Source: Candidatus Calescibacteriota bacterium (GTDB taxonomy: Bacteria; CAIJMQ01; JAADFP01). Taken from it: a DNA stretch of 36,333 nucleotides. The position numbers and the translations under genes are program-made. The notes under the pieces were generated by a model. That model ran no database searches, was not told where the DNA came from, and saw only the letters and a program-made list of their open reading frames with translations. The stretch is taken from contig JAGGYA010000006.1 in the NCBI GenBank assembly GCA_021162785.1, positions 1-36,333 on the forward strand. Reading direction: 5' to 3'. This document shows, piece after piece, positions 11,620 to 35,447 of this stretch (within the stretch, counting starts at the first letter, position 1; the number at the start of each line of letters is the position of its first letter).

Positions 11620-11656
11620 CCTGAAAAAGACTGGGAAAAGTGGGAAATGGAAATAA

Positions 11657-11668
11657 TGGTATAATACC
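11657..11668 (+). promoter_or_regulatory. Extended -10 promoter for the SPFH/ABC unit
   Basis: TGG-TATAAT (11657-11665) is a perfect extended -10 element. It lies 7 bp before ATG 11673, so the transcript should start at or beside the A of ATG and be leaderless. The box is embedded in an 11-bp palindrome, GGTATAATACC (11658-11668), which could also be a regulator site between the divergent operons. Confidence 0.55.
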
Positions 11669-11672
11669 CTGC

Positions 11673-16470: not shown

Positions 16471-16471
16471 A

Positions 16472-18355
16472 ATGGAAAAGGAAGCGGAAATCTATCCTAC
16501 TGTGGAACACATTCACCACGAGGAAGAAGAGGTCTCCCATCGTCTAATCAGTGCATTAATTGGGGGAATTTTAGTATTTAACGCTTTTCTCGCCAGCTGG
16601 ATATTTCCTGAAAGACCGGAAATTTCCGGATTAAGTGCTTTAATTGGTGCTATCTTGCTTGGACTCCCCATTATAAAAGAGTCTCTACGAGGCTTCTATG
16701 AAGGTCAATTGCATATGGTTCAACTTGCCTCCATAGCCATCCTTGCCTGTATAGCACTTGGTGATTACAAGACAGCTGGTGTAGTGGCTTTCATAATACT
16801 TCTCGGGCATCTCCTTGAACACAGAACCGCCCTTGGAGCAAGGGAAGCTATTGAATCTCTTTTAAGACTCACACCTCCCACAGCACATCTTATCACCCCT
16901 CAAGGGGAAAAGGAAGTAATGGTAAGTGAACTGAAACCAGGAGATCTTATTAGAGTAAAACCAGGAGAAAACATACCTGCAGATGGAATAATCAAAAAGG
17001 AGACCACCACCATAAATGAGGCATCCATTACTGGAGAATCCTTGCCCGTGGATAAGGGGCCAGGTGACCCAGTGTATGAAGGGACAACCAATCTTACGGG
17101 AGCTATCATTGTGGAAGTAACCAAAGTGGGTAAAGACACTACCCTGGGGAAAGTGAAAGAGCTCATTCTTCAGGCAGAGAGAACAAAAATCCCCATTGTT
17201 TCCATAATAGAAAAGTATTTTCACTGGTATATTCCCGTAATAATAATGGTGGCAGGTCTCATCCTCTTCTTCACTAAGGAAGCCAATAGAGCAATCTCAG
17301 CACTAATAGTTGGTGCTCCCTGTGCCCTGCTTCTGGCCACTCCTACTGCCATAATAGCTGCTCTTTCCTGTGCAGCAAGAGCTGGAATAATGATTAAAGA
17401 TACCCTAAAAATTGAAACTGGTTCCCAGGTCAATGCAGTTGTTTTTGACAAAACAGGCACCCTTACAACAGGCGAACTTGCAGTTACAGGAATTCATCCA
17501 GTAGAAGAAATCTCTCCGGATCGTTTCCTTTTCTATGTTGCCTCTGTGGAAAAGCATTCTCAACACCCTACTGCTAAAGCAGTAAAGGAACTGGCCAGGA
17601 GAGCAAGAGTTAAATTTGTGGAACCTGAAAACTTTGAGGAAATAGGAGGTAAAGGAGTAAGGGGTAAAGTTGAGGGTAGAGAAGTTATAGTGGGCAGGGA
17701 AACATGGCTTGAGGAAAATGGGGTTAAAGTTCCAACTAAGGTTAAGAAGGAAAAAGCATTGAGTGTGCTTCATGTAGCCATTGATAAAAGATACTATGGA
17801 TGGCTGGAACTGGAAGACCAGATGAGAATGGAGGCAAAAGAAACCACGGAAATTTTAAAGAAAATGGGTATAAAGAAACTGGTTATGTTAACCGGAGATA
17901 AGAAAGAAGTTGCTGAAAGAGTGGCCAAGGAAAGTGGTTTTGAGGAAGTAGTGGCTGAGTGTCTGCCCGAAACAAAGCTGGATATTGTAGAGAAACTAAA
18001 AAACGAGGGGTATACTCTGGCAGTGATTGGAGATGGGATAAATGATGCACCCGCTCTGGCTGCTGGAGATGTGGGTATTGCACTGGGAGCTATGGGAAGC
18101 GATGTGGCTATCAGCAGTGCATCGGTAGCCTTAATGTCCAATGATTTGAGGAGAGTTCCTTATTTCCTGGCATTAGCAAGAACCAGTCGAGGAGTAATTT
18201 ATCAAAATCTGGTATTGGGCGGGATATTTGTAATTATTGGCCTTTTCCTTTCAGGTGCAGGATTTTTCTCCCCCATCATTGCTGCTCTTTACCATGAGCT
18301 GGGTTCTCTTATTGTAATTTTCAACAGTGCAAGAATAATCAAGTTTGAATTATGA
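16472..18355 (+). CDS. P1B-type heavy-metal ATPase, Co/Fe/Ni-like subgroup
   Basis: A 627-aa P-type ATPase. TGES (187-190) is the actuator loop, DKTGT with Asp326 the phosphorylation site, HP at 365-366 (KHSQHPTAKA) the P1B mark, and GDGINDAPALAAGD the hinge. The sixth-helix metal motif is APC (282-284), not CPC, and the last helix reads HELGSLIVIFNSARI, close to the HEGGT motif of P1B-4 pumps. There is no CxxC metal-binding domain; instead the N-terminus is His/Glu-rich (HIHHEEEE). Co, Fe or Ni export is more likely than Cu or Zn, by inference. It overlaps the ABC ATPase gene by 4 bp. Confidence 0.9.
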   Translation: MEKEAEIYPTVEHIHHEEEEVSHRLISALIGGILVFNAFLASWIFPERPEISGLSALIGAILLGLPIIKESLRGFYEGQLHMVQLASIAILACIALGDYKTAGVVAFIILLGHLLEHRTALGAREAIESLLRLTPPTAHLITPQGEKEVMVSELKPGDLIRVKPGENIPADGIIKKETTTINEASITGESLPVDKGPGDPVYEGTTNLTGAIIVEVTKVGKDTTLGKVKELILQAERTKIPIVSIIEKYFHWYIPVIIMVAGLILFFTKEANRAISALIVGAPCALLLATPTAIIAALSCAARAGIMIKDTLKIETGSQVNAVVFDKTGTLTTGELAVTGIHPVEEISPDRFLFYVASVEKHSQHPTAKAVKELARRARVKFVEPENFEEIGGKGVRGKVEGREVIVGRETWLEENGVKVPTKVKKEKALSVLHVAIDKRYYGWLELEDQMRMEAKETTEILKKMGIKKLVMLTGDKKEVAERVAKESGFEEVVAECLPETKLDIVEKLKNEGYTLAVIGDGINDAPALAAGDVGIALGAMGSDVAISSASVALMSNDLRRVPYFLALARTSRGVIYQNLVLGGIFVIIGLFLSGAGFFSPIIAALYHELGSLIVIFNSARIIKFEL

Positions 18356-19215
18356 GTGAAATCGTAAGTCTATTCGGGGTTACAAAAATATTTAAAGATT
18401 TCTGGGGTAAACCAAAGGTTAAAGCTGTAGATAATCTTGATTTGCAAATAAATGAGGGTGAGATATTTGGCCTTTTGGGTCCCAACGGTAGTGGGAAGAC
18501 CACCACGCTAAAACTTATTTTGGGTCTTCTCTATCCTACGCGAGGGAGGATCTCGGTTTTTAACAGACCACCCGGGGACAACCTAATCAAAAGGCTAATT
18601 GGCTATCTTCCTGAAGAAGATTACCTCTATCCCTATCTAACAGCAAGAGAGATAATGGATTTCTATGGAAGAATTTTTAATCTTAGCACACGAGTAAGAA
18701 AGGAGAGAGCAGATTATCTTCTTCAATTGCTGGGGATAAAAGGATACGAAAACAGACCTATAGGAGAGTACTCCAAAGGTATGGCCAGAAGAATTGGTCT
18801 TGCACAGGCACTGATCAATGACCCTCAACTTTTGATTTTAGATGAACCAACCAGTGGTATGGATCCCATAGGAGCTCGGGAAGTGAAAGATCTTCTTCTG
18901 GAACTCAAGAAGAAAGGGAAAACCATTTTAATCTCTTCCCATCTTCTTGCAGATATTGAAGATATCTGTGATCGGATAGGCATTTTATATGAGGGGAAAC
19001 TCATAGCTACAGGTGAAGTAAAAAAACTTCTTTCACCCTTTAAAGGAGAAAGTAATCGATTAGAAAAGTTTTTCCTTCAAGTAGTGGGAAAGGCTAAAGA
19101 GGAGAAAGGGGAGAGGGAGAAAAAAGTTGCTCCTAAGAAGAAGGAAAAGAAAGAAGTTAAAATAATTGAGGAAGGCCCCGATATGGAACTTTTGAAGAAA
19201 CTTACTAAAAAATAA
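18352..19215 (+). CDS. ABC transporter ATP-binding protein
   Basis: A 287-aa ATPase. Walker A is GPNGSGKTTTLKLILG, the signature is EYSKGMARRIGLAQAL, Walker B is LLILDEPTSGMDPIG and the switch His is in ILISSHLLADIEDICD. This is the exporter-type (ABC-2) subfamily. After about residue 225 there is an unusual Lys/Glu-rich linker (KEEKGEREKKVAPKKKEKKE) before a short tail. It should drive the permease encoded directly after it, and possibly the one at 11673. Confidence 0.92.
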   Translation: MSEIVSLFGVTKIFKDFWGKPKVKAVDNLDLQINEGEIFGLLGPNGSGKTTTLKLILGLLYPTRGRISVFNRPPGDNLIKRLIGYLPEEDYLYPYLTAREIMDFYGRIFNLSTRVRKERADYLLQLLGIKGYENRPIGEYSKGMARRIGLAQALINDPQLLILDEPTSGMDPIGAREVKDLLLELKKKGKTILISSHLLADIEDICDRIGILYEGKLIATGEVKKLLSPFKGESNRLEKFFLQVVGKAKEEKGEREKKVAPKKKEKKEVKIIEEGPDMELLKKLTKK

Positions 19216-20523
19216 ATGTTTCACAGAATACTTGCTATTACTCGAAAAACCTTTTTTTATTACTTTCTTTCTCCCGCTTATGGAATAATTATCTTTCTCC
19301 TTTTACTTCTACCCTTCTGGTGTTTGAGACTGGAAGGAGATGGAACTGCTTTAGGAAAATTTAAAATTTATTCCACTTACACCTTCCTTCTTGCCACTAT
19401 AATCCTTGTAGGAACCAATATATTTACTTCTTGCACTGTATTAACCAGAGATTGGCGAAGAAAAAGCATTTTCCTCTTAGATGTTAAACCTGTAAAACGA
19501 TGGGAGATTCTGGCAGGTAAATGGTTGGGGATAATCTTTCTAAACATCACTTTTTTGGCCATCCTCTTCTTTTCTATCTATCTTTCTTCAAAATTTCTTT
19601 CTCGCTACTATCTCCCTGAACTACGGGGCGAGAAAAATGTCTTTCTCACCTACCAAAAAATTCTTCCTTCTTCAAGAAAATCTCTACCTTCTTCAGAAGT
19701 GCATTCTCTTCTCCCTGGAGTGGAGAAAGAAAGACCTGCTGAAGAAAGAAAAGCCTCTTACTCTGTTTTGCCTGGTGCTCATGTTACCTGGCTTTTTCAG
19801 GGTATTGCTCCCACAGAAACTACCTTAATCCTAAATTACAAATTCTTTACTGCTAAAAAGGAAGAGACAAAAGTTATAGGATTCTGGATTATTGGAGATC
19901 CATCCACCAAAAATCTTTTCCGATACCAAAGTGAGGTTAAAGCAGGAGAAACCCATAAGATTCGTATACCACCCTGGACTTTAAACGATAAGGGAGAGTT
20001 ATGGGTAACTTATTTTAACATTGATCCCTTGGAAAGAAGTGTAGTCTTCCCAAAGGAAGAAATTACTCTTTTGGCTCCCTGGGGGAACTATTGGTTAAAC
20101 TTAATTTTTGGAGAATTTCTTCTTTTACTCATCATCTCCTTTGTTGTATTTTTGGGCATAACCCTAACCACTATGACTTCCACAATAACTGGAATAATAG
20201 GGACTCTTGTTTTCACAAGCATTTCTTTTGCTCGGGATATCCTGGGAGCATTTGTTCATTTTTTTGTAGAAACTACTGGGAAGAAAACTGCTGGTGTTAG
20301 TATTTATGCTCATTTCACTAACGGATTACTGACCCTCCTCAAGCATCTTCTCCCTCCCTTAGGCGAATGTCTTTCCCATAATTATGTAGGGAATGGAATT
20401 GTGCCTCCCCTCCTTCTTTTGGGAAAGTTATTTGTGGAAGTCTTTTTACTCAAAGGTTTAGGAGTATTCCTAATAGGAGTCCTTTACTTCACCCGGAGAG
20501 AATTGGGAATTCCCAATGAATAA
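19216..20523 (+). CDS. ABC-2 permease with large extracytoplasmic domain
   Basis: A 435-aa membrane protein starting immediately after the ABC ATPase stop. Two hydrophobic segments lie in the first 75 residues and another near 110. Residues about 125-285 form a soluble, strand-rich domain (ETKVIGFWIIGDPSTK; GETHKIRIPPWTLNDKGELW), probably outside the membrane. Three to four further membrane segments end the protein. The loop LTRDWRRKSIFLLDVKPVKR resembles the ABC-2 coupling region. The outer domain suggests that it handles a surface or periplasmic partner. It overlaps the next gene by 8 bp. Confidence 0.75.
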   Translation: MFHRILAITRKTFFYYFLSPAYGIIIFLLLLLPFWCLRLEGDGTALGKFKIYSTYTFLLATIILVGTNIFTSCTVLTRDWRRKSIFLLDVKPVKRWEILAGKWLGIIFLNITFLAILFFSIYLSSKFLSRYYLPELRGEKNVFLTYQKILPSSRKSLPSSEVHSLLPGVEKERPAEERKASYSVLPGAHVTWLFQGIAPTETTLILNYKFFTAKKEETKVIGFWIIGDPSTKNLFRYQSEVKAGETHKIRIPPWTLNDKGELWVTYFNIDPLERSVVFPKEEITLLAPWGNYWLNLIFGEFLLLLIISFVVFLGITLTTMTSTITGIIGTLVFTSISFARDILGAFVHFFVETTGKKTAGVSIYAHFTNGLLTLLKHLLPPLGECLSHNYVGNGIVPPLLLLGKLFVEVFLLKGLGVFLIGVLYFTRRELGIPNE

Positions 20524-22042
20524 AAGTCTAAAGGCATTGATTTTGGTGGTATCGGGTATCCTTATAATTTACCCTTCTTTTATCTGGCTGGAGAAGGTGC
20601 ATCAAGTTAAAAAGCAACATATCCCTCAACCTAAGTATGAAGCATGGAGAAAACTCCCACCCGAACTTATCTTCACCACCACACTTCTGGGAGGATTCCG
20701 GGGAATAATAGTGGATATTCTCTGGCTGAGATCCATGAAATTAAAAGAGGAAGGTAAGTATTTTGAGTTGGTTCAGTTAAGTAAGTGGATTGGTTTGCTT
20801 CAACCCGATATACCTTATGCCTGGACATTTAATGCCTGGAACCTTGCATACAATGTCTCTGTGGAGTTTCCCACAGGTGAGGAAAGATGGAATTGGATAT
20901 ACTTAGGTATAAAACTCTTAAGGGACAAAGCATTGATTTACTGCCCTACTGGAGCAGATATTTATAAAGAACTTTCTTGGATATATCTCAACAAAATTGG
21001 TGGAACAATTGATGAGTTCAGCGCGTTTTACAAACAAAAATGGGCTCAAATTATGGATGATGCTCTGGGAGGAGCAAAAGTGGAAGATTTGGCAAAAATA
21101 ATTGAAGAAAAGGGGAAAGAAAAGAAATTTAAGGAAATTTTGAAAAAATTGAAGGATGAAGGAATCAACCCTCTTTTAAATCCAGAGATTCTTAAGAGTG
21201 AGGAAGTGAAGAAAAGAATCCCTCAATCCTTAAGAAAAGATTTCCACCTGTGGATCAGGGCTAAATACCTTAAAGAAACCCTAAAACTTGACCCTAAAAT
21301 AATGAAAGAGCTAAATGAGAAATTTGTCCCTTTCGATTGGAGAGTGCCAGGGCCACATGCTATATATTGGGTTTATCTTGGACACAAAAAAGCGGAACTT
21401 GATGAGGTTACATATAAAAGATTCATTTATTATGCAATGAACAACATCTTAAAATGGGGAAGGGTAAGGATAAGTTATCTCCCTGCTGGTAAAGTTTTTC
21501 TGATTAACCCTAACTTTGCTGTAGTGCCTATTCTCAATAATTTCTATGAAGAAACAATTAAATCCTTAGAAAAACATTTTATAACTCCTACCCAGGCTTC
21601 CCATGCTAACTTCCTGAAAGATGTAATTCTAAATGCATTCATTTACAATGATTTGAAAACTGCTCACAAATACTTCAAATATCTTAAAGAGCATTATCCT
21701 CAGGAAGTTGGACACCGGAACTTTGAAGAATTCATACTCCATGAATATTCTTACATTCTAAGGGAAGGAAGTATCCAAGAAATCAGGTCATTACTCTTTG
21801 GTATCCTTTATCAGTATTACTGGTCATTAGCTGTGGGTGAAGATGATAGAGCTTATGGACTGGACCATTTAGCCCATCTATTACATAAAAAAATTAAGAG
21901 CTTTGGTAAGTTCAGAGATGTTATTCCTGAGTATGATGAATTAAAAGAATTTGTGCTTTCCAGAGTATATCAAACTTTTCCCTCCGCATTGGTGGAGAGT
22001 TTAAAAATTAGGTTGAAAAAAATTCCTGAGGAGAAAAAATGA
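20516..22042 (+). CDS. Membrane-anchored helical repeat protein of ABC/SPFH cluster
   Basis: A 508-aa protein with one N-terminal membrane anchor (ALILVVSGILIIYPSFIWLE) and then a long helical region. The segment LLGGFRGIIVDILWLRSM with PDIPYAWTFNAWNLAYNVSV looks like degenerate TPR helices; I recall similar proteins next to ABC exporters in other phyla but cannot name a family. It may be a periplasmic adaptor for the permease just upstream. Start overlaps that gene by 8 bp, and its stop overlaps the M16 peptidase start by 4 bp. Function is unknown. Confidence 0.65.
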   Translation: MNKSLKALILVVSGILIIYPSFIWLEKVHQVKKQHIPQPKYEAWRKLPPELIFTTTLLGGFRGIIVDILWLRSMKLKEEGKYFELVQLSKWIGLLQPDIPYAWTFNAWNLAYNVSVEFPTGEERWNWIYLGIKLLRDKALIYCPTGADIYKELSWIYLNKIGGTIDEFSAFYKQKWAQIMDDALGGAKVEDLAKIIEEKGKEKKFKEILKKLKDEGINPLLNPEILKSEEVKKRIPQSLRKDFHLWIRAKYLKETLKLDPKIMKELNEKFVPFDWRVPGPHAIYWVYLGHKKAELDEVTYKRFIYYAMNNILKWGRVRISYLPAGKVFLINPNFAVVPILNNFYEETIKSLEKHFITPTQASHANFLKDVILNAFIYNDLKTAHKYFKYLKEHYPQEVGHRNFEEFILHEYSYILREGSIQEIRSLLFGILYQYYWSLAVGEDDRAYGLDHLAHLLHKKIKSFGKFRDVIPEYDELKEFVLSRVYQTFPSALVESLKIRLKKIPEEKK

Positions 22043-24591: not shown

Positions 24592-25293
24592 ATGAAAAGA
24601 TTTGTCTTTTTCCTTCTTTCCCTCTTCCTTCTTTCTCAACTTCAAAGCGAGGATTGGGAGAAACTGAGAAGGGAAATGGTGGAAAAACAGATAATTGCTC
24701 GAGGGGTGAAAGATCCTCGCCTAATTCAAGCAATGCTTAAGGTGGAAAGACATCTTTTTGTGCCTCCAGCCTATCGGCACCTTGCCTATACTGACCAGCC
24801 TTTACCCATTGGTGAAGGGCAAACCATTTCTCAACCCTATATAGTCGCTCTTATGACTGAGCTCCTGGAGCTTAAAGGTGATGAAAAGGTTCTGGAAATC
24901 GGCACGGGTTCAGGGTATCAGGCAGCCATACTGGCAGAACTTGCTCAGGAGGTTTACACAATTGAGATAATCCCAAAATTAGCAGAGTCAGCAAGAAAAA
25001 GATTGGAAAAACTGGGTTATAAAAACATCAAGGTAAAATGTGGTGATGGTTATATGGGATGGGAAGAATATGCTCCTTTTGATGCTATAATCGTCACCTG
25101 TGCACCTGACCATATTCCCAAACCTTTACTTGAACAACTTAAAGAAGGGGGGAGAATGGTAATTCCAGTGGGGGAATATTACCAGGAACTAATACTGGTG
25201 AGAAAAAAAGAGGGGAAGATCATTAAGAGAAGCATAATCCCGGTGAGATTCGTTCCCATGACAGGTGAAGGAGTGAAAAGAGGAAGAAAATGA
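24592..25293 (+). CDS. pcm: Exported protein-L-isoaspartate O-methyltransferase
   Basis: PCMT repairs isoaspartyl residues in aged proteins using SAM. The sequence has all family marks: [72 protein letters not shown] and GRMVIPVGE. The catalytic domain is preceded by a hydrophobic signal ([16 protein letters not shown]), so it is likely exported. I chose ATG 24592, which has AGGGGGTGG before it; GTG 24583 is in frame and adds three residues. It lies 24 bp after the peptidase gene and overlaps the regulator gene by 4 bp. Confidence 0.92.
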
Positions 25294-26612
25294 AGAAAGT
25301 TCTTATTGTAGAAGATGAAGAGAGGATGAGAGAACTCCTCACGGATCACCTCACCTCCTGGGGATACGAAGTCACGGGAGTATCAGATGGGGAAACTGCC
25401 CTCAAGAAACTCAAAGAGCATCATTTCCCCATTGCCATTATTGACCTTAGACTTCCGGGGATGGATGGATTGAAGCTTCTGGAAAAAATAAAGGAAATCG
25501 ATCCTTCAACGGAAAGTATTGTGATAACTGCCTATGCTACGGTTGAATCCGCTATAAATGCATTAAAGAAAGGTGCTCGTGATTACCTCACCAAACCTTT
25601 CAAAATGGAGGAACTCAGAGTTGTTATAGAAAAAGCAATGGAGGAAAAGTTAAGGGAAGAAGAGAATCGTTACCTTAAAGACCATCACAGAGAAAAAGTC
25701 ACCTTCACGGATCTGGTTTACAGAAGCAGAAAAATGAAGGAAGTGGTGGAAAAGATAAAGAAGGTGTTAAAAAGCGAAGTGACGGTTCTTGTTACAGGAG
25801 AAAGCGGTACCGGCAAGGAACTTGTGGCCAGAATTATCCATTATGAGAGTCCCAGGAAGGAAAAACCTTTTGTGGTGGTGAACTGCGCTGCGCTTCCCGA
25901 AACACTTCTTGAAAGCGAACTTTTTGGCCATGAGAAAGGAGCTTTCACTGGAGCAAATACTCGAAAAATAGGGAAGTTTGAATTTGCTGATGGTGGAAGT
26001 GTGTTTCTGGATGAAATTGGTGAAATGCCCCTTCCCCTCCAGGCTAAACTTTTGAGATTCCTCCAGTATAAAGAATTCCAGAGAGTGGGAGGGAATGAAA
26101 CCATTCGGGTGGATGTCAGAATAATTGCTGCTACAAATAAAGATCTTAAAGAAGAGGTGAAAAAAGGAAATTTCCGGGAGGATTTGTATTATCGTCTTGA
26201 TGTTTTCCCCATCCATTTACCCTCTTTAAGAGAGAGGAAAGAAGATATACCCTTACTGTGTGAAAACTATCTGGCACGGCGATACCCTCATAAAAAAATA
26301 TCTCCAGAAGCAATGGATTTACTCTTAAATTATTCCTGGCCTGGAAATGTGAGAGAACTGGAGAATGTCCTGGAACGTGCCTGTCTTCTGAGTGAGGGAG
26401 AAACAATCCTTCCTTCCCATATATCTCTCCCCTTCCCTCGAGGAGCGAAAGAGTTAAGCACACTGGAAGAAATGGAAAAAAATCTTATTCAGGAAGCCCT
26501 GAAACTCACACGGGGTAACCAGACCCGTGCTTCTGAACTTCTGGGTATTACCCGAAGAACACTCATTTATCGGATGAAAAAGTATGGGATAAATCCAAAG
26601 GAGTTCAGTTGA
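25290..26612 (+). CDS. Sigma-54-dependent NtrC-type response regulator
   Basis: A 440-aa regulator. Receiver domain 1-118 has phospho-acceptor Asp52 and Lys102 (YLTKPF). The AAA+ domain, about 140-375, shows [16 protein letters not shown] (Walker A), [10 protein letters not shown] (the sigma-54 contact loop), [12 protein letters not shown] (Walker B) and [17 protein letters not shown] Fis-type helix-turn-helix closes it ([19 protein letters not shown]). It should activate sigma-54 promoters after phosphorylation. No sensor kinase is in the window. It is the last gene of the SPFH/ABC unit and overlaps pcm by 4 bp. Confidence 0.95.
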
Positions 26613-26689: not shown

Positions 26690-27466
26690 ATGAAAATAAT
26701 CTGTGGAATAGATGCTGGATCAACAACCACAAAAATTGTCCTGAGAGAAGGTGAAAAAATCCTCTCCTATACCATTTTCCCCACCGGGACAAAAGTGAAG
26801 GAAGAAATAGAAAAAAGACTTAAGGAGTGTCTGGAAAAGGCGGGTAGGAAACTCTCCGATGTTTCGGTTGTAATATCCACTGGCTACGGGAGGAGACTTA
26901 TCCAATTCGCGGATAAAACAATCAGCGAAATCACAGCCAATGCCAAAGGAGCAATATGGCTATCCAGGGAAAAAATCAGAACAATCATTGACATCGGTGG
27001 ACAGGATAGCAAAGCTATTTCCTTAGATGAAGAGGGAAAAATTGTCAATTTCGCCATGAACGATAAATGTGCAGCCGGAACAGGGAGATTCCTTGAAGTA
27101 ATGGCAAGGGTTCTGGAAGTGGGAATAGAAAAGATGGGGGAAGTCTCCCTCAAAGCGGAAAAAGCGGTGAATATAAGCAGTCTGTGTACCGTCTTTGCTG
27201 AATCAGAAGTAATTTCCCTTCTGGCCAGAGGTTATCCTGTTCCGGAAATAATTGCGGGGCTACATCGGTCTATTGCCAGAAGAGTTGGACAACTGGCAAG
27301 GAAAGTAGGTATCAGGGAAAAAGTCTTCTTCAATGGTGGTGGTGCCCTCAATCCCGGACTGCGTAAGGCACTGGAGGAGGAACTTCAAACCAAACTCATA
27401 GTTCCAGAAATCCCCCAAATTGTCTCCGCCTTAGGTGCCACTTTGGTTAACGAAACTCAATCGTGA
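26690..27466 (+). CDS. ATP-dependent Fe-S activator (HgdC/BadF-BcrA-type)
   Basis: A 258-aa acyl-CoA dehydratase activator-family ATPase of the ASKHA fold. Phosphate loop is CGIDAGSTTTKIVL; then STGYGRRL, ITANAKGA, IIDIGGQDSKAI, NDKCAAGTGRFLEV and SSLCTVFAES, and finally FNGGGALNPG. Cys127 and Cys166 match the pair that in each subunit helps hold a single [4Fe-4S] cluster between two monomers. Such proteins use ATP to push a low-potential electron into HgdB-type partners. The only such partner here is at 32940, in the same unit. Its stop overlaps the next gene by 4 bp (GTGA). Confidence 0.92.
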   Translation: MKIICGIDAGSTTTKIVLREGEKILSYTIFPTGTKVKEEIEKRLKECLEKAGRKLSDVSVVISTGYGRRLIQFADKTISEITANAKGAIWLSREKIRTIIDIGGQDSKAISLDEEGKIVNFAMNDKCAAGTGRFLEVMARVLEVGIEKMGEVSLKAEKAVNISSLCTVFAESEVISLLARGYPVPEIIAGLHRSIARRVGQLARKVGIREKVFFNGGGALNPGLRKALEEELQTKLIVPEIPQIVSALGATLVNETQS

Positions 27467-28278
27467 AGAAATTAATTTTTCTCCTCCTGGTAGTTCTTAC
27501 GATTTCTGGGTGTGCAAAAAGAGAAAAGGAAGACCTTACAGTTATCTTTGGCACCAGGCTGGGAGATTCTGGAATAGCCTTTTTCATACAGGAAGAATTT
27601 GAAAAAAGATACGGAATTAAAATCAAGCCGAGATACCGATGTATGGAAATGGCTGTAAAAGAAATCAAGGAAGCAGATGTTCTTGTACATGCTCACCCCA
27701 ATATAAAAATCCTGGAGGAAGAAGGTTGGGTGATGGGAAGAAAACCGGTTATGGAGAGTCAATGGGTTCTGGTAGGCCCTCCATCAGACCCTGCAGGTGT
27801 AGGAAATACAAAGAATATCTTTGAAGCATTACGAAAAATTTATAAGTGTAAAGCTCCCTTCCTCTCAAGAGGCGACCTATCCTGCCAGAACACCAAAGAG
27901 AAACAACTCTGGGAAAACCTAAGAATTAAGCCGGAGGGAGAATGGTATGTAATCTCCCAGTTGAGTAACCTTCCTTCCCTTCGTATGGCGTCACAAATGG
28001 AATGTTATTATCTGGCTGATGAACCTACTTTTTTAGCGGAGAGAGATTTCCTCCACTTAAAAGTTTTCATAAAAGGAGAGGATATCCTCAAGGATAGATG
28101 GGAGGTGATGATAATAAATCCAGAAAATTTCTCTGTTAACTATAGAAAAGCCAAAAAGTTTGTGGAGTTTCTCACTTCACCTGATTTTCAGCAAAGACTG
28201 AAAGAATGGGGCAAGGACAGGTTTGGTGTGGCACCTTACTCTCCAGTTTTTCAGGTAAAAACCGCTGAAGAGGGATGA
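27463..28278 (+). CDS. TupA-like substrate-binding lipoprotein
   Basis: A 271-aa lipoprotein. The signal ends at a lipobox, TISGC. The mature part resembles the tungstate-binding TupA group: TRLGDSGIAFFIQEEFEKRY, EADVLVHAHPNIKILEEEG, PVMESQWVLVGPPSDPAGVG, APFLSRGDLSC and YLADEPTFLAERD align with TupA features (DSG, DVL-V-HA, VGP-DPAG, F-SRGD-S, LTD-x-T-YLA). No cognate permease or ATPase follows. The ligand may be tungstate, molybdate or something else. GTG 27463 overlaps the activator gene by 4 bp. Fold is fairly sure, ligand uncertain. Confidence 0.78.
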   Translation: MKKLIFLLLVVLTISGCAKREKEDLTVIFGTRLGDSGIAFFIQEEFEKRYGIKIKPRYRCMEMAVKEIKEADVLVHAHPNIKILEEEGWVMGRKPVMESQWVLVGPPSDPAGVGNTKNIFEALRKIYKCKAPFLSRGDLSCQNTKEKQLWENLRIKPEGEWYVISQLSNLPSLRMASQMECYYLADEPTFLAERDFLHLKVFIKGEDILKDRWEVMIINPENFSVNYRKAKKFVEFLTSPDFQQRLKEWGKDRFGVAPYSPVFQVKTAEEG

Positions 28279-28688
28279 AAAAATTTATTTTATTTACCTT
28301 CATCTTCGGTCTTCTCCTTTTAATTTCTGGTTGCAGTAAGAAATCAACTGTTCACTCGCATGAAGAAGGAGTCTGTCAATGCACAACTGGGCTGGATGCA
28401 AAACTGGCTCAGAAAATGGCAAGAGATTATGCCTGTGACCACAAGAAACTGGGTGATAGATACTTTAGAAGTTGTAAGTACCCAGAAGCAAAATTATCCT
28501 ATCATAGAGCAATAGCTATTGATCCTACTTATGCTGAAGCATATTACATGCTGGGCTTGACATATATAAAACTTGGAGAGAAACAAAAAGCTATAGAAAT
28601 CTTTGAGGAAGGATTAAAGATGAATCCTGGGCACAGAAAACTTAAAAAGATGATAAGAAAAATTAAGAAGAATGCATCTGGAGATTAA
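28275..28688 (+). CDS. TPR lipoprotein with Cys/His-rich N-terminal segment
   Basis: A 137-aa lipoprotein (lipobox LISGC). After the anchor comes HSHEEGVCQC and then further Cys residues (YACDHKK, RSCKYPEA), a pattern that could bind a metal. Two TPR-like units follow; the clear one is AEAYYMLGLTYIKLGEKQKA, then IEIFEEGLKMNP. It probably works as a periplasm-facing scaffold for neighbouring exported proteins. ATGA overlap with the TupA-like gene and a 17-bp overlap with the next show strict coexpression. Confidence 0.75.
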   Translation: MKKFILFTFIFGLLLLISGCSKKSTVHSHEEGVCQCTTGLDAKLAQKMARDYACDHKKLGDRYFRSCKYPEAKLSYHRAIAIDPTYAEAYYMLGLTYIKLGEKQKAIEIFEEGLKMNPGHRKLKKMIRKIKKNASGD

Positions 28689-29634
28689 AACTTCCTGGAT
28701 ATTTAAAATTTTAAAACCATTCCTTTTTCTCATTCTCTTCTTTTCTCCTTTGAATTTTAAAGCAGATGATACTCAATATTTCCGAATTTATAAACTCTTT
28801 AACCGGGGAGATTATGGAAGGAAAAATTTTGAGAAGGAGGTTAAACTGTTAACTCAGGCAATTAAAGAGGAACCCCGATACTTCCCCTATTACTCACTCC
28901 TTTCCAAAATATACAGGATACAGGGTGAAACGGGAAAAGCCATAGAACTCTGGAGTAAACTTCTTTCTCTTAACCCTCCCAGGAAATGGAAGATTATAGC
29001 TACCCAGCATCTGTCTGCTTTAAAGGAGAGAAAAAAATTTAAAGTTAAAGTATCGGAGGAGGGATTCCTTGATCTCGTGGAGGTTTATAACTGCCAGGGA
29101 ATTACCAGAGATAATGTAAGATATGTCAATGACTTCTCTCTAACTCCTCAAGGAATTACTTTTGAAGAAAAACATTTACCAAATATACTGGCCTGTCCCC
29201 GGAATGTAAGAATTAAATTCCAATTGCCATGTTTACCCTATATTGATAAAAGGGAAGACCTTGACTTTTTTCTCACCGCTATCAAGTGCAGAGGACAGGA
29301 ACTGGAAATAGAACCCTCCCAAATTTACCGTTCTCTCCATATACTTGGTTTCTCCGTGAGCGGAGATAAAGAAGAAGGTGTCATCACCCTGATTTACACG
29401 GATGAATCCCAAAAAATTGAAGTGGAATTTTCTGACTGGATTAATCGTGAACCATCCCATGAACCGGTATACCGGGATTCAGAAAAACATTTTTGTAATG
29501 GGGAAGAAATTTCAGACCTGCAAAAACCTCTCTGGATGTTCCACTACTCCATCCTACTTAAAGAAAAAATCCTTAAAAAAATTGTCCTTCCTAAAAAGAG
29601 AGGGGTAAGAATAATAGCCCTAACTCTGAAATGA
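28672..29634 (+). CDS. Exported TPR protein of unknown function
   Basis: A 320-aa protein with an N-terminal signal or anchor (ILKPFLFLILFFSPLNFKAD). Residues 35-115 contain TPR-like repeats (YFPYYSLLSKIYRIQGETGK then AIELWSKLLSLNP). Residues 125-320 look strand-rich (VKVSEEGFLDLVEVYNCQGI; GFSVSGDKEEGVITLIYTDE) with several Cys. I do not recognise the C-terminal domain. It overlaps both neighbours (17 and 4 bp) and probably acts with the preceding TPR lipoprotein. Confidence 0.7.
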   Translation: MHLEIKTSWIFKILKPFLFLILFFSPLNFKADDTQYFRIYKLFNRGDYGRKNFEKEVKLLTQAIKEEPRYFPYYSLLSKIYRIQGETGKAIELWSKLLSLNPPRKWKIIATQHLSALKERKKFKVKVSEEGFLDLVEVYNCQGITRDNVRYVNDFSLTPQGITFEEKHLPNILACPRNVRIKFQLPCLPYIDKREDLDFFLTAIKCRGQELEIEPSQIYRSLHILGFSVSGDKEEGVITLIYTDESQKIEVEFSDWINREPSHEPVYRDSEKHFCNGEEISDLQKPLWMFHYSILLKEKILKKIVLPKKRGVRIIALTLK

Positions 29635-30563
29635 AGTTGAAGATTTCCTACCTCAGATTCACCGTGCAACTTCTCTCATTAACTCTCCTAACATATGGTG
29701 GCTACTGGTTTGGCTGGAAAAGGTTAAATTTGAGAGGCATCACTCTCCAGGCACCTATCCTTTCCTGTCACTTTAATGAAAAAGGCTGGTTTATCTGCTT
29801 TCTCTATGATTTTCAGCGGTTTCTCACCTCTCAACCTAAGGAAACTTTCTGGGTTTTCCTTTCCTTTTTTATCTTAGCCATATTTCTGGGAAGAATCTGG
29901 TGTGGTTGGATATGTCCCTTAGTAACCATACAGGAGATTTTTATCAAACTGCGTTCACTTGTGGGTATGCCTTACTTAAGAATTCCAAGAATTGGAAAAA
30001 CCCTGCTTAAAGTGGTAGCATCACTTTTCCTGGGAACCGTAGTAGTCTTCTCTTTCCTCTTGGGAAGACCCTTCTGTCCCCTTTATCGTTTCTCTCTGGA
30101 TTTGGAAACCCCTTTTTGCAAAATCTGTCCGGGAAGGCTTCTCATCTATCTTTTACAGGGTAAGGGGAACGAGTTTCTCTATGTGGATAGGTTCTCTCCT
30201 ATTACCCTTGCTTTTTCCTACGCTTCTTTCACTATCTTTTCCATATTTTTGGCTGGTATCACTGCAATACGAAAATTCTGGTGCAGAGTATGCCCTTTAG
30301 GATTGCTTCTAAACCTCCTCCATGTAAACAGGCTTTCTCCCTTTTCTCTTGAGAAAAATACACAAAAATGCACATCCTGTGGTGTCTGCAAAAGAGTCTG
30401 TCCACTGGATCTGGATACTGTGTATAAAGAAAAAAGGAAAGCAAATGTCCTGGGGAGAGACTGTATTCTGTGCCTTAAATGTGTGGAAGCTTGCCCAGAA
30501 AAGGATGCCCTTAAATTCACCATATTTAAAATACCCATAATCAGGTCGGGATTGATGTTGTGA
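29631..30563 (+). CDS. NapH-like membrane 4Fe-4S protein
   Basis: A 310-aa integral membrane iron-sulfur protein. About four to five membrane segments carry Cys motifs at their ends (WCGWICPLVTIQEIF, GRPFCPLY, FCKICPGR, FWCRVCPLG), as in the NapH/NosR/RdxA group. The C-terminal domain has two classic ferredoxin clusters: CTSCGVCKRVCP and CILCLKCVEACP. Proteins of this type pass electrons between quinones, soluble carriers and extracytoplasmic partners. Here it could supply the activator/HgdB pair or exported redox partners. ATGA overlap with the upstream gene. Confidence 0.88.
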   Translation: MKLKISYLRFTVQLLSLTLLTYGGYWFGWKRLNLRGITLQAPILSCHFNEKGWFICFLYDFQRFLTSQPKETFWVFLSFFILAIFLGRIWCGWICPLVTIQEIFIKLRSLVGMPYLRIPRIGKTLLKVVASLFLGTVVVFSFLLGRPFCPLYRFSLDLETPFCKICPGRLLIYLLQGKGNEFLYVDRFSPITLAFSYASFTIFSIFLAGITAIRKFWCRVCPLGLLLNLLHVNRLSPFSLEKNTQKCTSCGVCKRVCPLDLDTVYKEKRKANVLGRDCILCLKCVEACPEKDALKFTIFKIPIIRSGLML

Positions 30564-30567
30564 TGGA

Positions 30568-32964
30568 ATGAGAATTCCTATAGAATTAACTCGAATGAAA
30601 AAAATCTATTTAATTTTACCCCTTCCCATCTTAATAGGAATTCTTCTTCTTATTTACTTAAACAACCGCAATCCTTATTCACGAGAATTCACTGGCCATA
30701 TCTGTGATTGCTGGAGAAAGGTGAAAATCCCCTATGTGAAAGGTTCAAAACCTTTTGAAGGTGTATTCCCCCGAGCCAATTTTGTAGATAAGGAGAAACT
30801 TTACCTAATCGATATCCGGAAAATGAATAAAGAAATGAGATTCCTGGCCAGAGTTTTTGCTGGACTCTCTAACCGGAAACTCCCTCCCTCCTTCCTCATT
30901 CTTGACGAAAACGAGAAGTTTTACCATCTCTTCATCAAGGATATTAAAAGAAAGCAGTTGATAAATGGGGATACCCTTCTTTCCTTGGTAAGGGAATACT
31001 TCCAGAAAGGTTATATCCATGGTTGCATTCTTTATGATGGAAGACTTTGGTGGACTTCATCACATATCCTCAATGTGGTTAGAACCCTCTGTGCAGTGGA
31101 AGATGCAGTCCCTCTCACACCCACCCTGAATAAAAGACTAAATCTCCCTGTGATTGTGAATACTTTGGAAAAAAGGATCTGGAAAAAAGATGCCACTATG
31201 AGTTATCCTGAATACCAGTGGGCCTTCCATAATTTATGGAAAGAGTGTTATCATCATGTCCTTGCTTATATTCCACCTGGCGAAGACTCTCCTTTAACCG
31301 ATTATATAGTGCAGTTCAAATTATTTACTTTTTATTTACCTTCCCAGGATAAGAGAACAGAAAAACTTTTTGAATACATTCTCTCACATTCCCCTCCCAA
31401 CACAGCTGTAATAGGAGTCATCACGAGAAAAAAGGGGTGGGAAGGGAAAATGGAGAAAATTAGGACAATGAGAATAATGAGTAAATTCGGTAAGTTCTTT
31501 TTCACCGTTTCTTCTACTCCCAATTTGAGTTATTACACTGGACTCAGGGATGAGAAAAGACCTGTCCTTAAACAGAAAAAACAGAAAAAGAAAGAAGTAG
31601 AGAAGAAAAGATACATAAGTTTTGTTCTCACCACTGGAAACAGTCTTGATGTAATGATTAAGGAGAGATGGTTCCACTGGAACAGCAAGCCAAGAGGTAA
31701 AATTCCCATAGGCTGGTCAATACCTCTTGGGATTATTGACCTTTTCCCTTCACTTATCCAGTATTACTATCATACCGCGGAAGATACCGACTTTTTCCTG
31801 GCCGATACCTCTGGTATTGGTGAAATCTATCCTTTCTGGTATGGAAAAATTTATGGAGAAAGAAGGGAAGATGGATGGAGAGAATACCTTTCCATGACTT
31901 CCCACTACATGAGACTTTCCAGCATTGATACGCTCTGGACAGCATACCATGACAGGGAGAGCGAGGGAAAATTCCTCTTAATTTCTCCTCTCTCCAACTT
32001 AATCTATGGATTGGAAGGAGCACATCGATACCTTAATTCTTCCTCCTTCATATCCCAGAAAAAATGTATTTTCTTCCCTTATTTTTCCGTGAAAGTGAAG
32101 TATGACCTCAAAAATCTTTTAAATTTTCTCCCCCGTAATCTCCCTTCATTCATCCTGATTGGACTGGATGAGAAACTTTACGCGGATGTGGATATCCTCA
32201 AAGAAATTGAACTTTTGAAAGAAAATCTCCCTGAAGACACAGAACTTGTAAGGCCTGATGAACTTTTCTCTCTTTACAGGAAAGCTTTGAACCGGGGCTG
32301 GATAAAAATGGAAACTCCTGAGATTAAGTGGAAAACAAGGAAAAAAGTAACCGTGAGAAGGGTAAGGGGGAAAATAAATGTAGATGGGAACTTAAATGAA
32401 TGGAGTTATGCAGAAAAAATCACCATACGGGAAAAAAACCAGGTGAAATGGGGAAGATCCTGGCAGGGACCACAGGATATTTCTGGAGAAATCTACCTTT
32501 TACATGATGGGAAATATCTATATCTTGGAGCGGTGGTGCACGATGAAATGATCTCTACTGACAGGAACCCATCAGTTTCCGATGGGATAGAAATCTTCTT
32601 AGATAAGAGAGAGGGAAGATTTCATGCCCCCTCACTCACTCAGGGATTTTACGATTTCATTATTACCGTGGATGGAAAACTTCATAAGATTTATCCCACA
32701 TTTGACATGGGGTTAATCACTCCCGGCTGGGGTAGAGCCAGAGAAAAAATATCTGTTAAAAGATTTGCCAGAGGATATACCATAGAAGCCCAGATCCCCC
32801 TCCTGAATTTTCAAGATTATCCATATACCTCTCCTCTACCCAAACGCCTTTATTTAGACATTGCCCTTAATGATAAAGATGGATCCTTTCAAACTAAGAT
32901 TTTCTGGGAAGGGAGCCTTTACTCATACCCAGGAATAATATGCGGTATGATGAGCTTAGAATAA
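30568..32964 (+). CDS. Exported GxGYxYP-like protein with CBM9-like domain
   Basis: A 798-aa protein with an N-terminal anchor (IYLILPLPILIGILLLIYL). Residues about 345-575 resemble the GxGYxYP putative glycoside hydrolase domain: YISFVLTTGNSLDVMIKERW, RGKIPIGWSIPLGIIDLFPS, then ADTSGIGEIYP, where the name-giving motif is GIGEIYP (first Tyr replaced by Glu). Residues about 600-798 are CBM9/DOMON-like: GKINVDGNLNEW, GEIYLLHDGKYLYLGAVVHD and DGIEIFLDKREG. Such domains bind sugars or, in some exported redox proteins, heme. Start ATG 30568 has a poor ribosome site; ATG 30595 is possible. Confidence 0.7.
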   Translation: MRIPIELTRMKKIYLILPLPILIGILLLIYLNNRNPYSREFTGHICDCWRKVKIPYVKGSKPFEGVFPRANFVDKEKLYLIDIRKMNKEMRFLARVFAGLSNRKLPPSFLILDENEKFYHLFIKDIKRKQLINGDTLLSLVREYFQKGYIHGCILYDGRLWWTSSHILNVVRTLCAVEDAVPLTPTLNKRLNLPVIVNTLEKRIWKKDATMSYPEYQWAFHNLWKECYHHVLAYIPPGEDSPLTDYIVQFKLFTFYLPSQDKRTEKLFEYILSHSPPNTAVIGVITRKKGWEGKMEKIRTMRIMSKFGKFFFTVSSTPNLSYYTGLRDEKRPVLKQKKQKKKEVEKKRYISFVLTTGNSLDVMIKERWFHWNSKPRGKIPIGWSIPLGIIDLFPSLIQYYYHTAEDTDFFLADTSGIGEIYPFWYGKIYGERREDGWREYLSMTSHYMRLSSIDTLWTAYHDRESEGKFLLISPLSNLIYGLEGAHRYLNSSSFISQKKCIFFPYFSVKVKYDLKNLLNFLPRNLPSFILIGLDEKLYADVDILKEIELLKENLPEDTELVRPDELFSLYRKALNRGWIKMETPEIKWKTRKKVTVRRVRGKINVDGNLNEWSYAEKITIREKNQVKWGRSWQGPQDISGEIYLLHDGKYLYLGAVVHDEMISTDRNPSVSDGIEIFLDKREGRFHAPSLTQGFYDFIITVDGKLHKIYPTFDMGLITPGWGRAREKISVKRFARGYTIEAQIPLLNFQDYPYTSPLPKRLYLDIALNDKDGSFQTKIFWEGSLYSYPGIICGMMSLE

Positions 32965-34130
32965 TTTTTGGGGAGGAAATCGAAAAATTAAAAGAGCTAC
33001 CTTCAAGACCTGCTTCCATAAAACTCTTTGAAGACCTTGTAATCCAAACCCTTGAGGGGAAACTCTTTAAACAGAAAATTGTAGGGATTTTCTGCCTTTT
33101 CCCCCCTATAGAATTTATCTATGCTGCAGGACTAATCCCGGTGAGGCTCTGTTCAGGAGTTTATGAGACTATCCCTTTCTCTGAAGATATACTTCCCAGA
33201 GACTGCTGTCCATTGGTGAAATCTTCCGTAGGGATTTTGAAAAAGAAGATTCTTCCTTTCATAGATAGACTCTCTCTTCTTATCATCCCTACAACCTGCG
33301 ATTGGAAAATGAAAATGAGCGAAGTCTTAGATGAAGAAATACCCATCTGGATACTCAATCTTCCCCATCAGAAAGAAAAGGAACATCTTAAAAAAGCGTG
33401 GTTTAAAGAACTTGAAGAACTCATTAGAGAACTGGAAAAAATCGGTGAGAAAAAGATTACCCGATGGAGACTTAGAGAAAGTATAGTTATGGTAAGAAAA
33501 GCCCAGAGACTTTTCAGGAGACTATACGAACTTAAAAAGAAAAAACACATTTACGGTTCCGATATGGTCCTAATATTTACCACCTTCTTCTACTCACCTC
33601 TTCCCAACTGGATGGAGAAAATGGAAGAATTTTTAAAAGAAGCGGAAACTCTTGACCTCAAGGGGAATCCACCTCGCATACTTCTTACCGGCTCCCCCAT
33701 TATTTTCCCCAACCTGAAACTCCCTTATCTTATAGAATCCTCCGGTGGCCTGGTGGTGGCCGATGAATTCTGCACTGTTTCCAGGGTCCTTTATGACCCA
33801 GTAGTAATGGATGAATTCACTTGCAGAGATCTTTTTGAAGCAGTTGCAGAAAGATATTTACTTCCCTGCACCTGCCCCTGTTTCACTCCAAATGAAGAAA
33901 GAGAGAAAAGACTCTTGGAACTCTGCCAAAGTTTTGATGTGGAAGGAGTAATCTACCATGTTTATAAGGGATGCTTCCTCTATGATACGGAACTTTTCCG
34001 GATACAGCAATTGCTGAAGAAGAAGGATATTCCTCTTCTTCGAATAGAGACTGATTATACTCCAGAAGATATTGAACAGATAAGAACAAGGGTAGAAGCA
34101 TTCCTGGAAATGCTCAAAGAGAGGAGATAA
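32940..34130 (+). CDS. HgdB-family Fe-S protein (dehydratase D subunit / DCCP-like)
   Basis: A 396-aa protein of the 2-hydroxyacyl-CoA dehydratase/benzoyl-CoA reductase subunit family: AAGLIPVRLCSGVYE, RDCCPLVKSSVG, IPTTCDWKMKM, LIESSGGLVVADEFCTVSR, YLLPCTCPC, YKGCFLYD and RTRVEAFLEML. Cys residues 71, 89/90, 120, 278, 310/312/314 and 345 give ample cluster ligands. No HgdA-type partner gene is present, so a homodimer is possible, as in the double-cubane-cluster proteins, which also have a dedicated activator. The substrate is unknown. It overlaps the preceding gene by 25 bp and ends the unit. Confidence 0.85.
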   Translation: MRYDELRIIFGEEIEKLKELPSRPASIKLFEDLVIQTLEGKLFKQKIVGIFCLFPPIEFIYAAGLIPVRLCSGVYETIPFSEDILPRDCCPLVKSSVGILKKKILPFIDRLSLLIIPTTCDWKMKMSEVLDEEIPIWILNLPHQKEKEHLKKAWFKELEELIRELEKIGEKKITRWRLRESIVMVRKAQRLFRRLYELKKKKHIYGSDMVLIFTTFFYSPLPNWMEKMEEFLKEAETLDLKGNPPRILLTGSPIIFPNLKLPYLIESSGGLVVADEFCTVSRVLYDPVVMDEFTCRDLFEAVAERYLLPCTCPCFTPNEEREKRLLELCQSFDVEGVIYHVYKGCFLYDTELFRIQQLLKKKDIPLLRIETDYTPEDIEQIRTRVEAFLEMLKERR

Positions 34131-34513: not shown

Positions 34514-35122
34514 CTATTTCCAAATCTTTATCTCATTGAATTTTACCTTAAAATTTCTGAAGATCTTTTCCATCTTCTCCCTTTCTTTAAACGGAACCAG
34601 AACACAACCAGAACTCAACTTTTCTCCTCCAATCTTTTGCAGTAACCCTGGATATTTATAACCGTGAATAGCATGGGGATAGAGTTTTCTATCGAATTTT
34701 GCCTTTTCTTTCTGAGAAAGGTTCTTTAATTCAAAGGTAAATAGAACATAAGGTCTTTGTTTAAGTAACAGAGCGGATTCTATCTCCAAAGGTTCTCTTA
34801 GATAAAGAACTTTACCTTCTTGGAAGATGTTCTGAAGTAGTCCTGTATCTGTTTGTTTTAATTCTTTCTTTGTTCTTATTGTGGGCTGGATACTTCGGGA
34901 TATCTTATTCTCCAATTTAATAATTGTGTCCTCGATTTTCTCCTTATTTGCTGAATTATCCACGAGTATGAAGAGATCTATGTCAGACCTCGCTCCATAG
35001 TCTCCCCGGGCATAACTCCCAAAAAGGATAACTCCTACCACTTCCTTTAATCTGGAGAGTTCTCGGCTTATTGTTTTAAGAATCCTTTTTTCAGCCAATT
35101 TTCTCACCAAACCTTTCCTCAA
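34514..35122 (-). CDS. MNT-type nucleotidyltransferase (HEPN partner)
   Basis: A 202-aa protein with the MNT motif GVILFGSYARGDYGARSDID at about residues 30-50 (G-S, then D-x-D). In HEPN-MNT TA pairs the MNT protein inactivates the HEPN toxin by adding AMP. The C-terminal half (from about 100) is an extra basic region not in minimal MntA proteins (about 100-140 aa). The start is uncertain: TTG 35122 is the longest frame, but GTG 35107 has GAGG 9 bp upstream and is preferable. It overlaps the HEPN gene. A SIR2-like remnant begins 5 bp after its stop. Confidence 0.85.
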   Translation of the reverse strand: MRKGLVRKLAEKRILKTISRELSRLKEVVGVILFGSYARGDYGARSDIDLFILVDNSANKEKIEDTIIKLENKISRSIQPTIRTKKELKQTDTGLLQNIFQEGKVLYLREPLEIESALLLKQRPYVLFTFELKNLSQKEKAKFDRKLYPHAIHGYKYPGLLQKIGGEKLSSGCVLVPFKEREKMEKIFRNFKVKFNEIKIWK

Positions 35123-35447
35123 AAAACTTTATTACCTCCTTCAGATTCTTCATAACCTGTTCTGCTCTTTTTCCATTAATTCCATCATAACCTAAGTCTC
35201 CATAGGCGAACCAGATTCTCCTCATGGCGTGGTTAATCTCTTCAGGAAAATTTGCATTGGCATAGTCGTGCCTTGACTTGTGGTCACCAAAATGCTGGTT
35301 GGTCCTTGCAGCATCCGCCTCAATGAGTTGTTCAACCACTTTGATTCCCAAATCTCCAACTACTGTAAATCTCTTCTCTTTAAATGCTTCTCTTATCGAC
35401 CTTAATTTCTCTCTTGCTATATCCAGGTGTTTCTTGTAATCCCCCAT
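35091..35447 (-). CDS. HEPN-domain protein (toxin of HEPN-MNT pair)
   Basis: A 118-aa, mostly helical protein (REKLRSIREAFKEKRF; GIKVVEQLIEADAARTN; AEQVMKNLKEVIKFFEERF) of HEPN type, placed directly before the MNT gene and overlapping it. HEPN proteins are often RNases with an R-x4-6-H motif. Here the candidate region is ARTNQHFGDHKSRHDY, where spacing is not canonical, so nuclease activity may be altered. ATG 35447 follows AAAGGGG, and a TACAAT box overlaps a palindrome just upstream. Confidence 0.75.
   Translation of the reverse strand: MGDYKKHLDIAREKLRSIREAFKEKRFTVVGDLGIKVVEQLIEADAARTNQHFGDHKSRHDYANANFPEEINHAMRRIWFAYGDLGYDGINGKRAEQVMKNLKEVIKFFEERFGEKIG

Follow-up and report, generated by a model that had tools for sequence, protein, structure and literature searches.

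What does a lone HgdB-type iron-sulfur (Fe-S) protein, with an ATP-dependent activator of its own, do in the company of a membrane electron carrier and exported proteins? The question is raised by seven genes at positions 26690-34130 of contig JAGGYA010000006.1 (assembly GCA_021162785.1, Candidatus Calescibacteriota), whose 36,333 nucleotides, taken as a whole, we refer to as the window. An earlier interpretation of the letters alone, which we call the sequence-only reading, had seen in these genes a protein of the double-cubane kind joined to a NapH-like carrier, and had proposed a pathway of reduction or metal handling that spans the membrane. The biological function of double-cubane proteins has itself been stated to be unknown (PMC11971306). 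We report that a clade of double-cubane-cluster proteins (DCCPs), together with their activators, a NapH-like membrane protein and exported proteins, very probably constitutes a real functional unit, and that the fixed partners of this deep DCCP branch in distant bacteria suggest a dedicated, undescribed reduction pathway.

All seven open reading frames (ORFs) of the sequence-only reading are borne out in coordinates and strand (Table 1). Adjacent frames overlap at five junctions, by 4, 4, 17, 4 and 25 bases, and the single gap, between 30563 and 30568, measures 4 bases. Given these overlaps of 4-25 bases, the lone 4-base gap and the common strand, the run reads as one operon. The protein families that had been assigned to it agree with Pfam and NCBIfam, with two adjustments: the second TPR protein is weakly TPR-like, and the TupA-like protein is a relative that falls below the TupA cut-off.

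The best NCBIfam match of the HgdB-type protein is the double-cubane reductase model NF040772, at 346.3 bits against a cut-off of 350 bits; its clade relatives score 393.9, 395.5, 308.5 and 263 bits. Because the window protein falls short of this cut-off, which is a limit set for annotation rather than a biochemical property, we assign it to a sister clade of DCCP and do not call it an NF040772 equivalog. Its closest solved relatives are DCCPs (6eno and 7yyl, E about 1e-65). The six cysteines listed for it in Table 1 align one to one with the double-cubane ligands of BzdN, Cys36/73/100/263/293/327 (PMC11971306), and all six [8Fe-9S] ligand cysteines are invariant across 54 aligned relatives. 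An AlphaFold model of the protein (predicted local distance difference test, pLDDT, 92.8; predicted template-modelling score, pTM, 0.91) has its best matches in the PDB in 6eno, 7yzm and 7yyl, with template-modelling (TM) scores of 0.89-0.93. The cysteines match the full [8Fe-9S] ligand set and not that of one [4Fe-4S] cluster.

Is this protein one half of a dehydratase, or is it complete in itself? The window's own assembly comprises 949 kb and is 64% complete, and each absence from it that we report is limited accordingly, a partner elsewhere being possible. Within it the gene is the sole match to PF06050, and neither a second HGD-D/HgdB-type gene, nor a separate HgdA-type partner, nor a BzdO-type gene was found. 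The 2-hydroxyacyl-CoA dehydratases and class I benzoyl-CoA reductases are defined by two unlike HgdB-type subunits, and here one HgdB-type gene was found. On account of the six ligands, the fold match and the lack of a second PF06050 gene, a predicted DCCP-type homodimer accounts well for the single subunit, better than half of a dehydratase would. This supports the sequence-only reading where it likened the lone protein to double-cubane-cluster proteins and their dedicated reductase. The DCCP and DCCP reductase of Carboxydothermus hydrogenoformans (6eno, 7yyl, 7yzm) likewise combine a single HgdB-type subunit with a dedicated ATP-dependent activator, and share the six [8Fe-9S] cysteines and the fold, but the window protein is about 32% identical to that DCCP, belongs to a separate clade, has a shorter N-terminus, and is tied by its neighbouring genes to a NapH-like carrier and exported proteins. 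BzdN of class I benzoyl-CoA reductase (8s02) has the same double-cubane ligand cysteines but a partner, BzdO, that holds the catalytic [4Fe-4S] cluster and has no detected counterpart in the window's assembly. HgdAB and HadBC, which are 2-hydroxyacyl-CoA dehydratases, resemble the window system in activator family and subunit fold, yet they need two unlike subunits and lack a double cubane, whereas the window locus has one subunit gene. Elsewhere, five loci (L099, L104, L106, L125 and L139) each carry two DCCP-type genes with one activator, and may encode heterodimeric or duplicated DCCPs.

The activator carries both [4Fe-4S] cysteine motifs (CAAGTGRF and SSLCTVFAESE). The sequence-only reading had called for a comparison with DCCP reductases and HgdC. 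In a tree the window activator groups with seven other NapH-linked activators (SH-like approximate likelihood-ratio test, SH-aLRT, 91). By score, HadI and HgdC of known structure are nearer to it than is the DCCP reductase whose structure has been solved. Activator similarity alone therefore fails to mark a DCCP system.

It is important to ask whether the company kept by this pair is peculiar to one genome. The exact seven-gene set has no second occurrence in the genomes and loci examined; the DCCP gene and the GxGYxYP protein are both absent from two genomes of the same family (G001, G002) and four of the same class (G003-G006); and viral contigs searched with the DCCP yielded no relative. 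A unique set, and its absence from family and class, are what one would expect if the seven genes were a chance or lineage-specific run without joint function. That explanation is already disfavoured, however, and we regard it as highly improbable: the core recurs in separate lineages as one DCCP clade with one activator clade, and its members occur together at the level of the genome even where the genes are split.

The closest DCCPs in the genome collection are those of locus L072 (Endomicrobia SKYB98; 42%, E 8e-102) and locus L073 (Patescibacteria UBA2591; 41%, E 1e-99), and the next follows at E 2e-76. The order in L072 is DCCP, activator, exported protein and NapH-like protein; in L138 (Desulfobacteraceae UBA2245) it is TonB-dependent receptor, exported protein, NapH-like protein, DCCP and activator; and in L073 the DCCP and activator are followed by an exported protein on the opposite strand and by a DsbD_2 membrane protein, with the NapH-like gene on another contig. 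Conversely, a profile built from three NapH-like proteins of DCCP loci and run over 386 genomes ranks G267 (217 bits), G130 (208) and G234 (170) above a gap that extends to 114, and all three genomes hold a DCCP of the clade type. Two genera of one family, represented by G234 (L184) and G386 (L230), have a run of ten genes: an HxC exported protein, an anchored exported protein, a NapH-like protein, the DCCP and the activator, and then a WtpA-like binding protein, a WtpB-like permease and a WtpC-like ATPase, ending with a second NapH-like protein and then a PQQ-type propeller (L184:2486-3544, L230:8865-9914). The HxC, anchored and NapH genes of G130 share one contig, with the DCCP-activator pair on another; in G267 the HxC gene adjoins the DCCP-activator pair, and the anchored and NapH genes lie elsewhere. 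Pieces that are shuffled and swap partners while staying in one genome are as expected for one functional unit. What is conserved is a core of DCCP, activator and NapH-like Fe-S protein in the membrane, to which exported partners are usually added. It is this core, including the proposed link to a NapH-type carrier, that is kept in distant lineages, and the exported partners are likewise present both in the window and in its relatives; conservation of the neighbourhood does not extend to the seven genes as a set.

In a quick tree of 62 rows, the eight NapH-linked DCCPs, drawn from separate lineages, group as a single clade (SH-aLRT 100). A repeat tree, from which four long-branched rows were left out, two of them clade members, again unites the remaining six (bootstrap/SH-aLRT 100/100). 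The clade is a deep branch of DCCP, with long inner branches whose order is unsure. The NapH subfamily is present in 8/8 clade genomes, as against 0/6 genomes with an ordinary DCCP (best 78 bits). Fisher's test on 8/0 versus 0/6 gives p = 3e-4, but 4/8 genomes were found through NapH itself. The remaining four members are the window's own and those picked up through DCCP similarity only (L072, L073 and L138), so the link between DCCP and NapH holds in both directions; we place more weight on these four and on the reciprocal result than on the p-value. Among 115 loci, of which nearly all are of DCCP/HgdB type, none outside the clade has the HxC protein, the anchored exported protein, the NapH-like protein with 16 cysteines or the binding proteins. 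Full-length HxC proteins are encoded in 3 of the 386 genomes (G130, G267 and G234, at 373-433 bits, the next scoring 58); in this collection four genomes have the NapH subfamily, and all three are among them. The associated hypergeometric probability is 4e-7; three genomes underlie it, and the sequences used to build the HxC profile belong to this same set, two of them to loci of the HxC-positive genomes. The sequence-only reading knew of no described system that joins such an ATP-driven pair with a NapH-type carrier and lipoproteins; a literature search likewise found none, nor any account of NapH-like carriers joined with DCCP.

The NapH-like protein itself scores far under the curated napH models (TIGR02163, 76.6 bits against a cut-off of 213; NF007013, 68.3 bits against 234), and no nap genes were recognised among the window ORFs. 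NapH-like proteins and DsbD have been described as modules that carry electrons from one side of the membrane to the other (PMC8238504). The window protein shares with NapH, NosR and PceC the CxxxCP motifs, the C-terminal 2[4Fe-4S] domain and this modular type (PMC8238504); it differs from them in four more invariant cysteines, predicted to lie outside, in its low score, in the lack of nap genes nearby, and in showing no FMN-binding domain among its Pfam matches. Sixteen cysteines are invariant in seven DCCP-linked NapH-like proteins, and eight of these belong to the 2[4Fe-4S] domain. The model places helices at 5-26, 69-86, 120-144 and 190-212. From hydropathy, loop charges and these helices, C46/C56 and C163/C166 are predicted on the outer face, and C91/C95, C218/C221 and the 2[4Fe-4S] domain on the inner face. 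Such a distribution, four cysteines to a face, would be compatible with a metal or redox site at both membrane surfaces. We had considered the extra cysteines as a unique mark of DCCP-linked NapH, and this is ruled out: the broader NapH-like family has all 16. Within that broader family, a thioredoxin reductase, a thioredoxin and a 16-cysteine NapH-like protein are consecutive at L189:3249-5425 (G006, of the window's class), suggesting an Fe-S counterpart of DsbD. In L185 and L186, 16-cysteine NapH-like genes precede exported proteins in which Cys-x-x-Cys-type motifs can be read, and which have no Pfam thioredoxin match. A truncated second NapH-like copy at L248:1346-1973 (G389), 2.4 kb upstream of the start of the intact copy, runs into an opposite-strand ORF that, at a guess from its sequence, is possibly transposase-like.

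The exported partners are more variable. The GxGYxYP and TPR genes seem to be specific to the window's lineage; in their place, other members of the clade have HxC proteins and exported proteins with a C-terminal anchor. By its domains (PF14323 at 83.1 and PF20958 at 37.8 bits, above cut-off; PF20957 at 23.6, just below), the 30568-32964 protein belongs to the GxGYxYP family of putative glycoside hydrolases. In the HxC family the H and the C never vary (positions 20 and 22, numbered on the first sequence). If the signal peptide were cut just before the histidine, a cut to which ends such as YA|HLC point, the mature protein would start with His-x-Cys, a possible metal site. A CBM9-like domain is common to the window GxGYxYP protein and the HxC protein of G130, and the former may take the place of the latter.

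What, then, would such a system act upon? The slot directly after the activator is occupied by a TupA relative in the window and by a WtpA relative in G234 and G386. The ligand residues of TupA in D. alaskensis are a TTTS motif, R118, T124 and D170 (PMC5517513). The window lipoprotein belongs to the fold family of the tungstate-binding proteins TupA and WtpA (5my5, 3lr1, 2onk, 3cij) and keeps the equivalents of R118 and D170, but TTTS is replaced by FGTR and T124 by Q, and the scores are well under the curated cut-offs, as is that of the WtpA relative in G234 (167.8 bits against 355). Because the pocket residues are changed and the WtpA relative lies far below its cut-off, the ligand may be another anion; tungstate as the ligand of the window lipoprotein was dropped when its pocket residues proved to differ.

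One alternative is that the binding proteins and importer supply conventional enzymes of tungsten or molybdenum, their place next to the DCCP genes being incidental, and their best matches are indeed to tungstate families (WtpA/B/C, TupA). We consider this very unlikely. Neither the MoaA C-terminal domain nor the nitrogenase family has a match in G234 (98% complete) or G386 (91%), the same MoaA search being positive in 11/14 control genomes, and two different solute-binding protein families occupy the same slot after the activator. With neither family found, the tungstate-type transporter would be without a known customer in these two genomes, an absence that we regard as suggestive in drafts of this kind. 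One could go further and place the clade at the heart of a pathway that imports a tungstate-like oxyanion (W, Mo, V or similar) and uses or transforms it with neither pterin nor nitrogenase, ATP-driven double-cubane chemistry being the source of electrons. This strikes us as a long shot; if true, a group 5/6 element would be put to use without pterin, or a dedicated reductase for an oxyanion would be at work, and either would be of a kind not known so far.

The reading that we prefer, to which we give a probability of roughly 0.45, is an ATP-assisted pathway in two compartments that reduces an anion or a metal, with the NapH-like protein as its membrane arm and the DCCP performing the hardest step inside. 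The exported proteins (TupA-like in the window, WtpA-like in two relatives, HxC-type in others) would hold the anionic or metal substrate outside; the NapH-like protein would connect the low-potential pool of the cytoplasm with the outer face, passing electrons by way of a four-cysteine site on each side; and the activator would spend ATP to charge the DCCP, which would carry out the most demanding reduction step in the cytoplasm. Our computations show the parts, their inheritance together and the conservation of the ligand residues, and they predict the topology. The thioredoxin genes beside the related protein in L189, and the DsbD_2 gene near the DCCP in L073, speak for the reading, and we lean modestly towards an outward flow of electrons across the NapH-like protein.

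Several points weigh against it. Of the membrane-spanning pathway first proposed, the union of DCCP, NapH-like protein and exported proteins is supported, while the nature of the substrate, the electron path and its direction, including any exchange between the NapH-like protein and the DCCP, are what we infer. The window lipoprotein has lost several of the TupA ligand residues; no permease or ABC ATPase gene (TupB, TupC) was found in 26690-34130; an ABC transporter is present in 2/8 clade loci, both of one family; and the HxC family was not found in the window's own genome. The placement of cysteines on two faces draws on hydropathy, charge bias and a model of moderate quality (pLDDT 81), and a PDB structure search with that model returned nothing significant, no solved structure of the NapH-like membrane part being found.

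The adjacency of NapH-like and DCCP genes in L138, L184 and L230, and the many exported partners, would also fit a more direct scheme, in which ATP drives electron export from the activator through the DCCP as a relay to the NapH-like protein, and the terminal reduction takes place outside on a substrate bound by an exported protein. A relay role has been proposed for the double cubane of BzdN in benzoyl-CoA reductase; the Carboxydothermus DCCP, however, itself reduces small substrates (PMC11971306). The full importer in two loci points, moreover, to a cytoplasmic substrate, and an outlay of ATP for an outside acceptor would require an unusually hard acceptor. We judge direct export unlikely. 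The importer suggests the opposite arrangement: an anion would be taken up by the binding protein and transporter and reduced in the cytoplasm by the DCCP, with quinol or an exported donor supplying electrons that pass inward through the NapH-like protein. The WtpABC-like importer immediately after the activator in L184 and L230, and the TupA-like lipoprotein in the same position in the window, agree with this; but quinol electrons sit far above the potential needed by the activator, most loci have no adjoining importer, and the 16-cysteine relative beside thioredoxin reductase and thioredoxin suggests outward flow. Such an inward pathway we hold to be distinctly unlikely.

The features of the operon, and a candidate regulator that precedes it, are collected in Table 1. 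A sigma-54 promoter was considered and dropped: a pattern search ahead of the operon gave no -24/-12 site, and sigma-70-like and terminator-like sites are no commoner than in shuffled sequence.

Table 1. Genes of the operon and the regulator gene upstream, in window coordinates.
Feature	Position	Strand	Matches and remarks
Sigma-54-type two-component response regulator	25290-26612	+	Ends 78 bases upstream of operon; candidate regulator only
ATP-dependent activator, HgdC/DCCP-reductase type (acyl-CoA dehydratase activase family)	26690-27466	+	TIGR00241, 280 bits (cut-off 125)
TupA-like solute-binding lipoprotein	27463-28278	+	NF041772, 76.6 bits (cut-off 400); lipobox ISGC
Small Cys-rich TPR lipoprotein	28275-28688	+	TPR_2, 58.7 bits; lipobox ISGC (read from sequence)
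Exported protein, weak TPR region and unassigned C-terminal region	28672-29634	+	TPR_2, 19.9 bits, below cut-off
NapH-like membrane Fe-S protein	29631-30563	+	Four transmembrane helices by model; Fer4_5 and 2[4Fe-4S] domain
Exported GxGYxYP protein, anchored at its N-terminus, CBM9-like domain at its C-terminus	30568-32964	+	GxGYxYP_C, 83 bits; CBM9_1, 46 bits
DCCP homologue	32940-34130	+	HGD-D, 322 bits; ligand set C52, C90, C120, C278, C312, C345

An eight-gene block elsewhere in the window (11640-22042) encodes a membrane protein, three SPFH proteins, a P-type ATPase, an ABC ATPase, an ABC-2 permease and an unassigned protein of 508 amino acids. G004, G005, G342 and G234 keep its order, and shorter contigs of G001, G002 and G006 carry parts that match; the block adjoins the DCCP operon in no more than two cases, the window and G234. 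We considered the block as part of the system and dropped it: it occurs throughout the window's class without DCCP, and it is unseen in 19 kb around the intact operon in G386. We treat it as a separate neighbour. On the minus strand at 34514-35447, a gene of nucleotidyltransferase fold overlaps a small unassigned ORF in the manner of an MNT/HEPN-type pair; the nucleotidyltransferase matches the PADLOC candidate PDC-S09 at 59.6 bits. An AbiEii-like nucleotidyltransferase lies at 311-985 (best PADLOC match 38.8 bits).

The tungstate-type transporter genes in genomes without a detectable molybdopterin pathway pose a question that is open to metal-binding assays. If electrons do cross the membrane in this system, low-potential chemistry powered by ATP would extend to a compartment for which none is known. 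A clade with fixed, recurring partners offers a genomic handle on a substrate and on the way in which a reductase of this type might be linked to the cell envelope.

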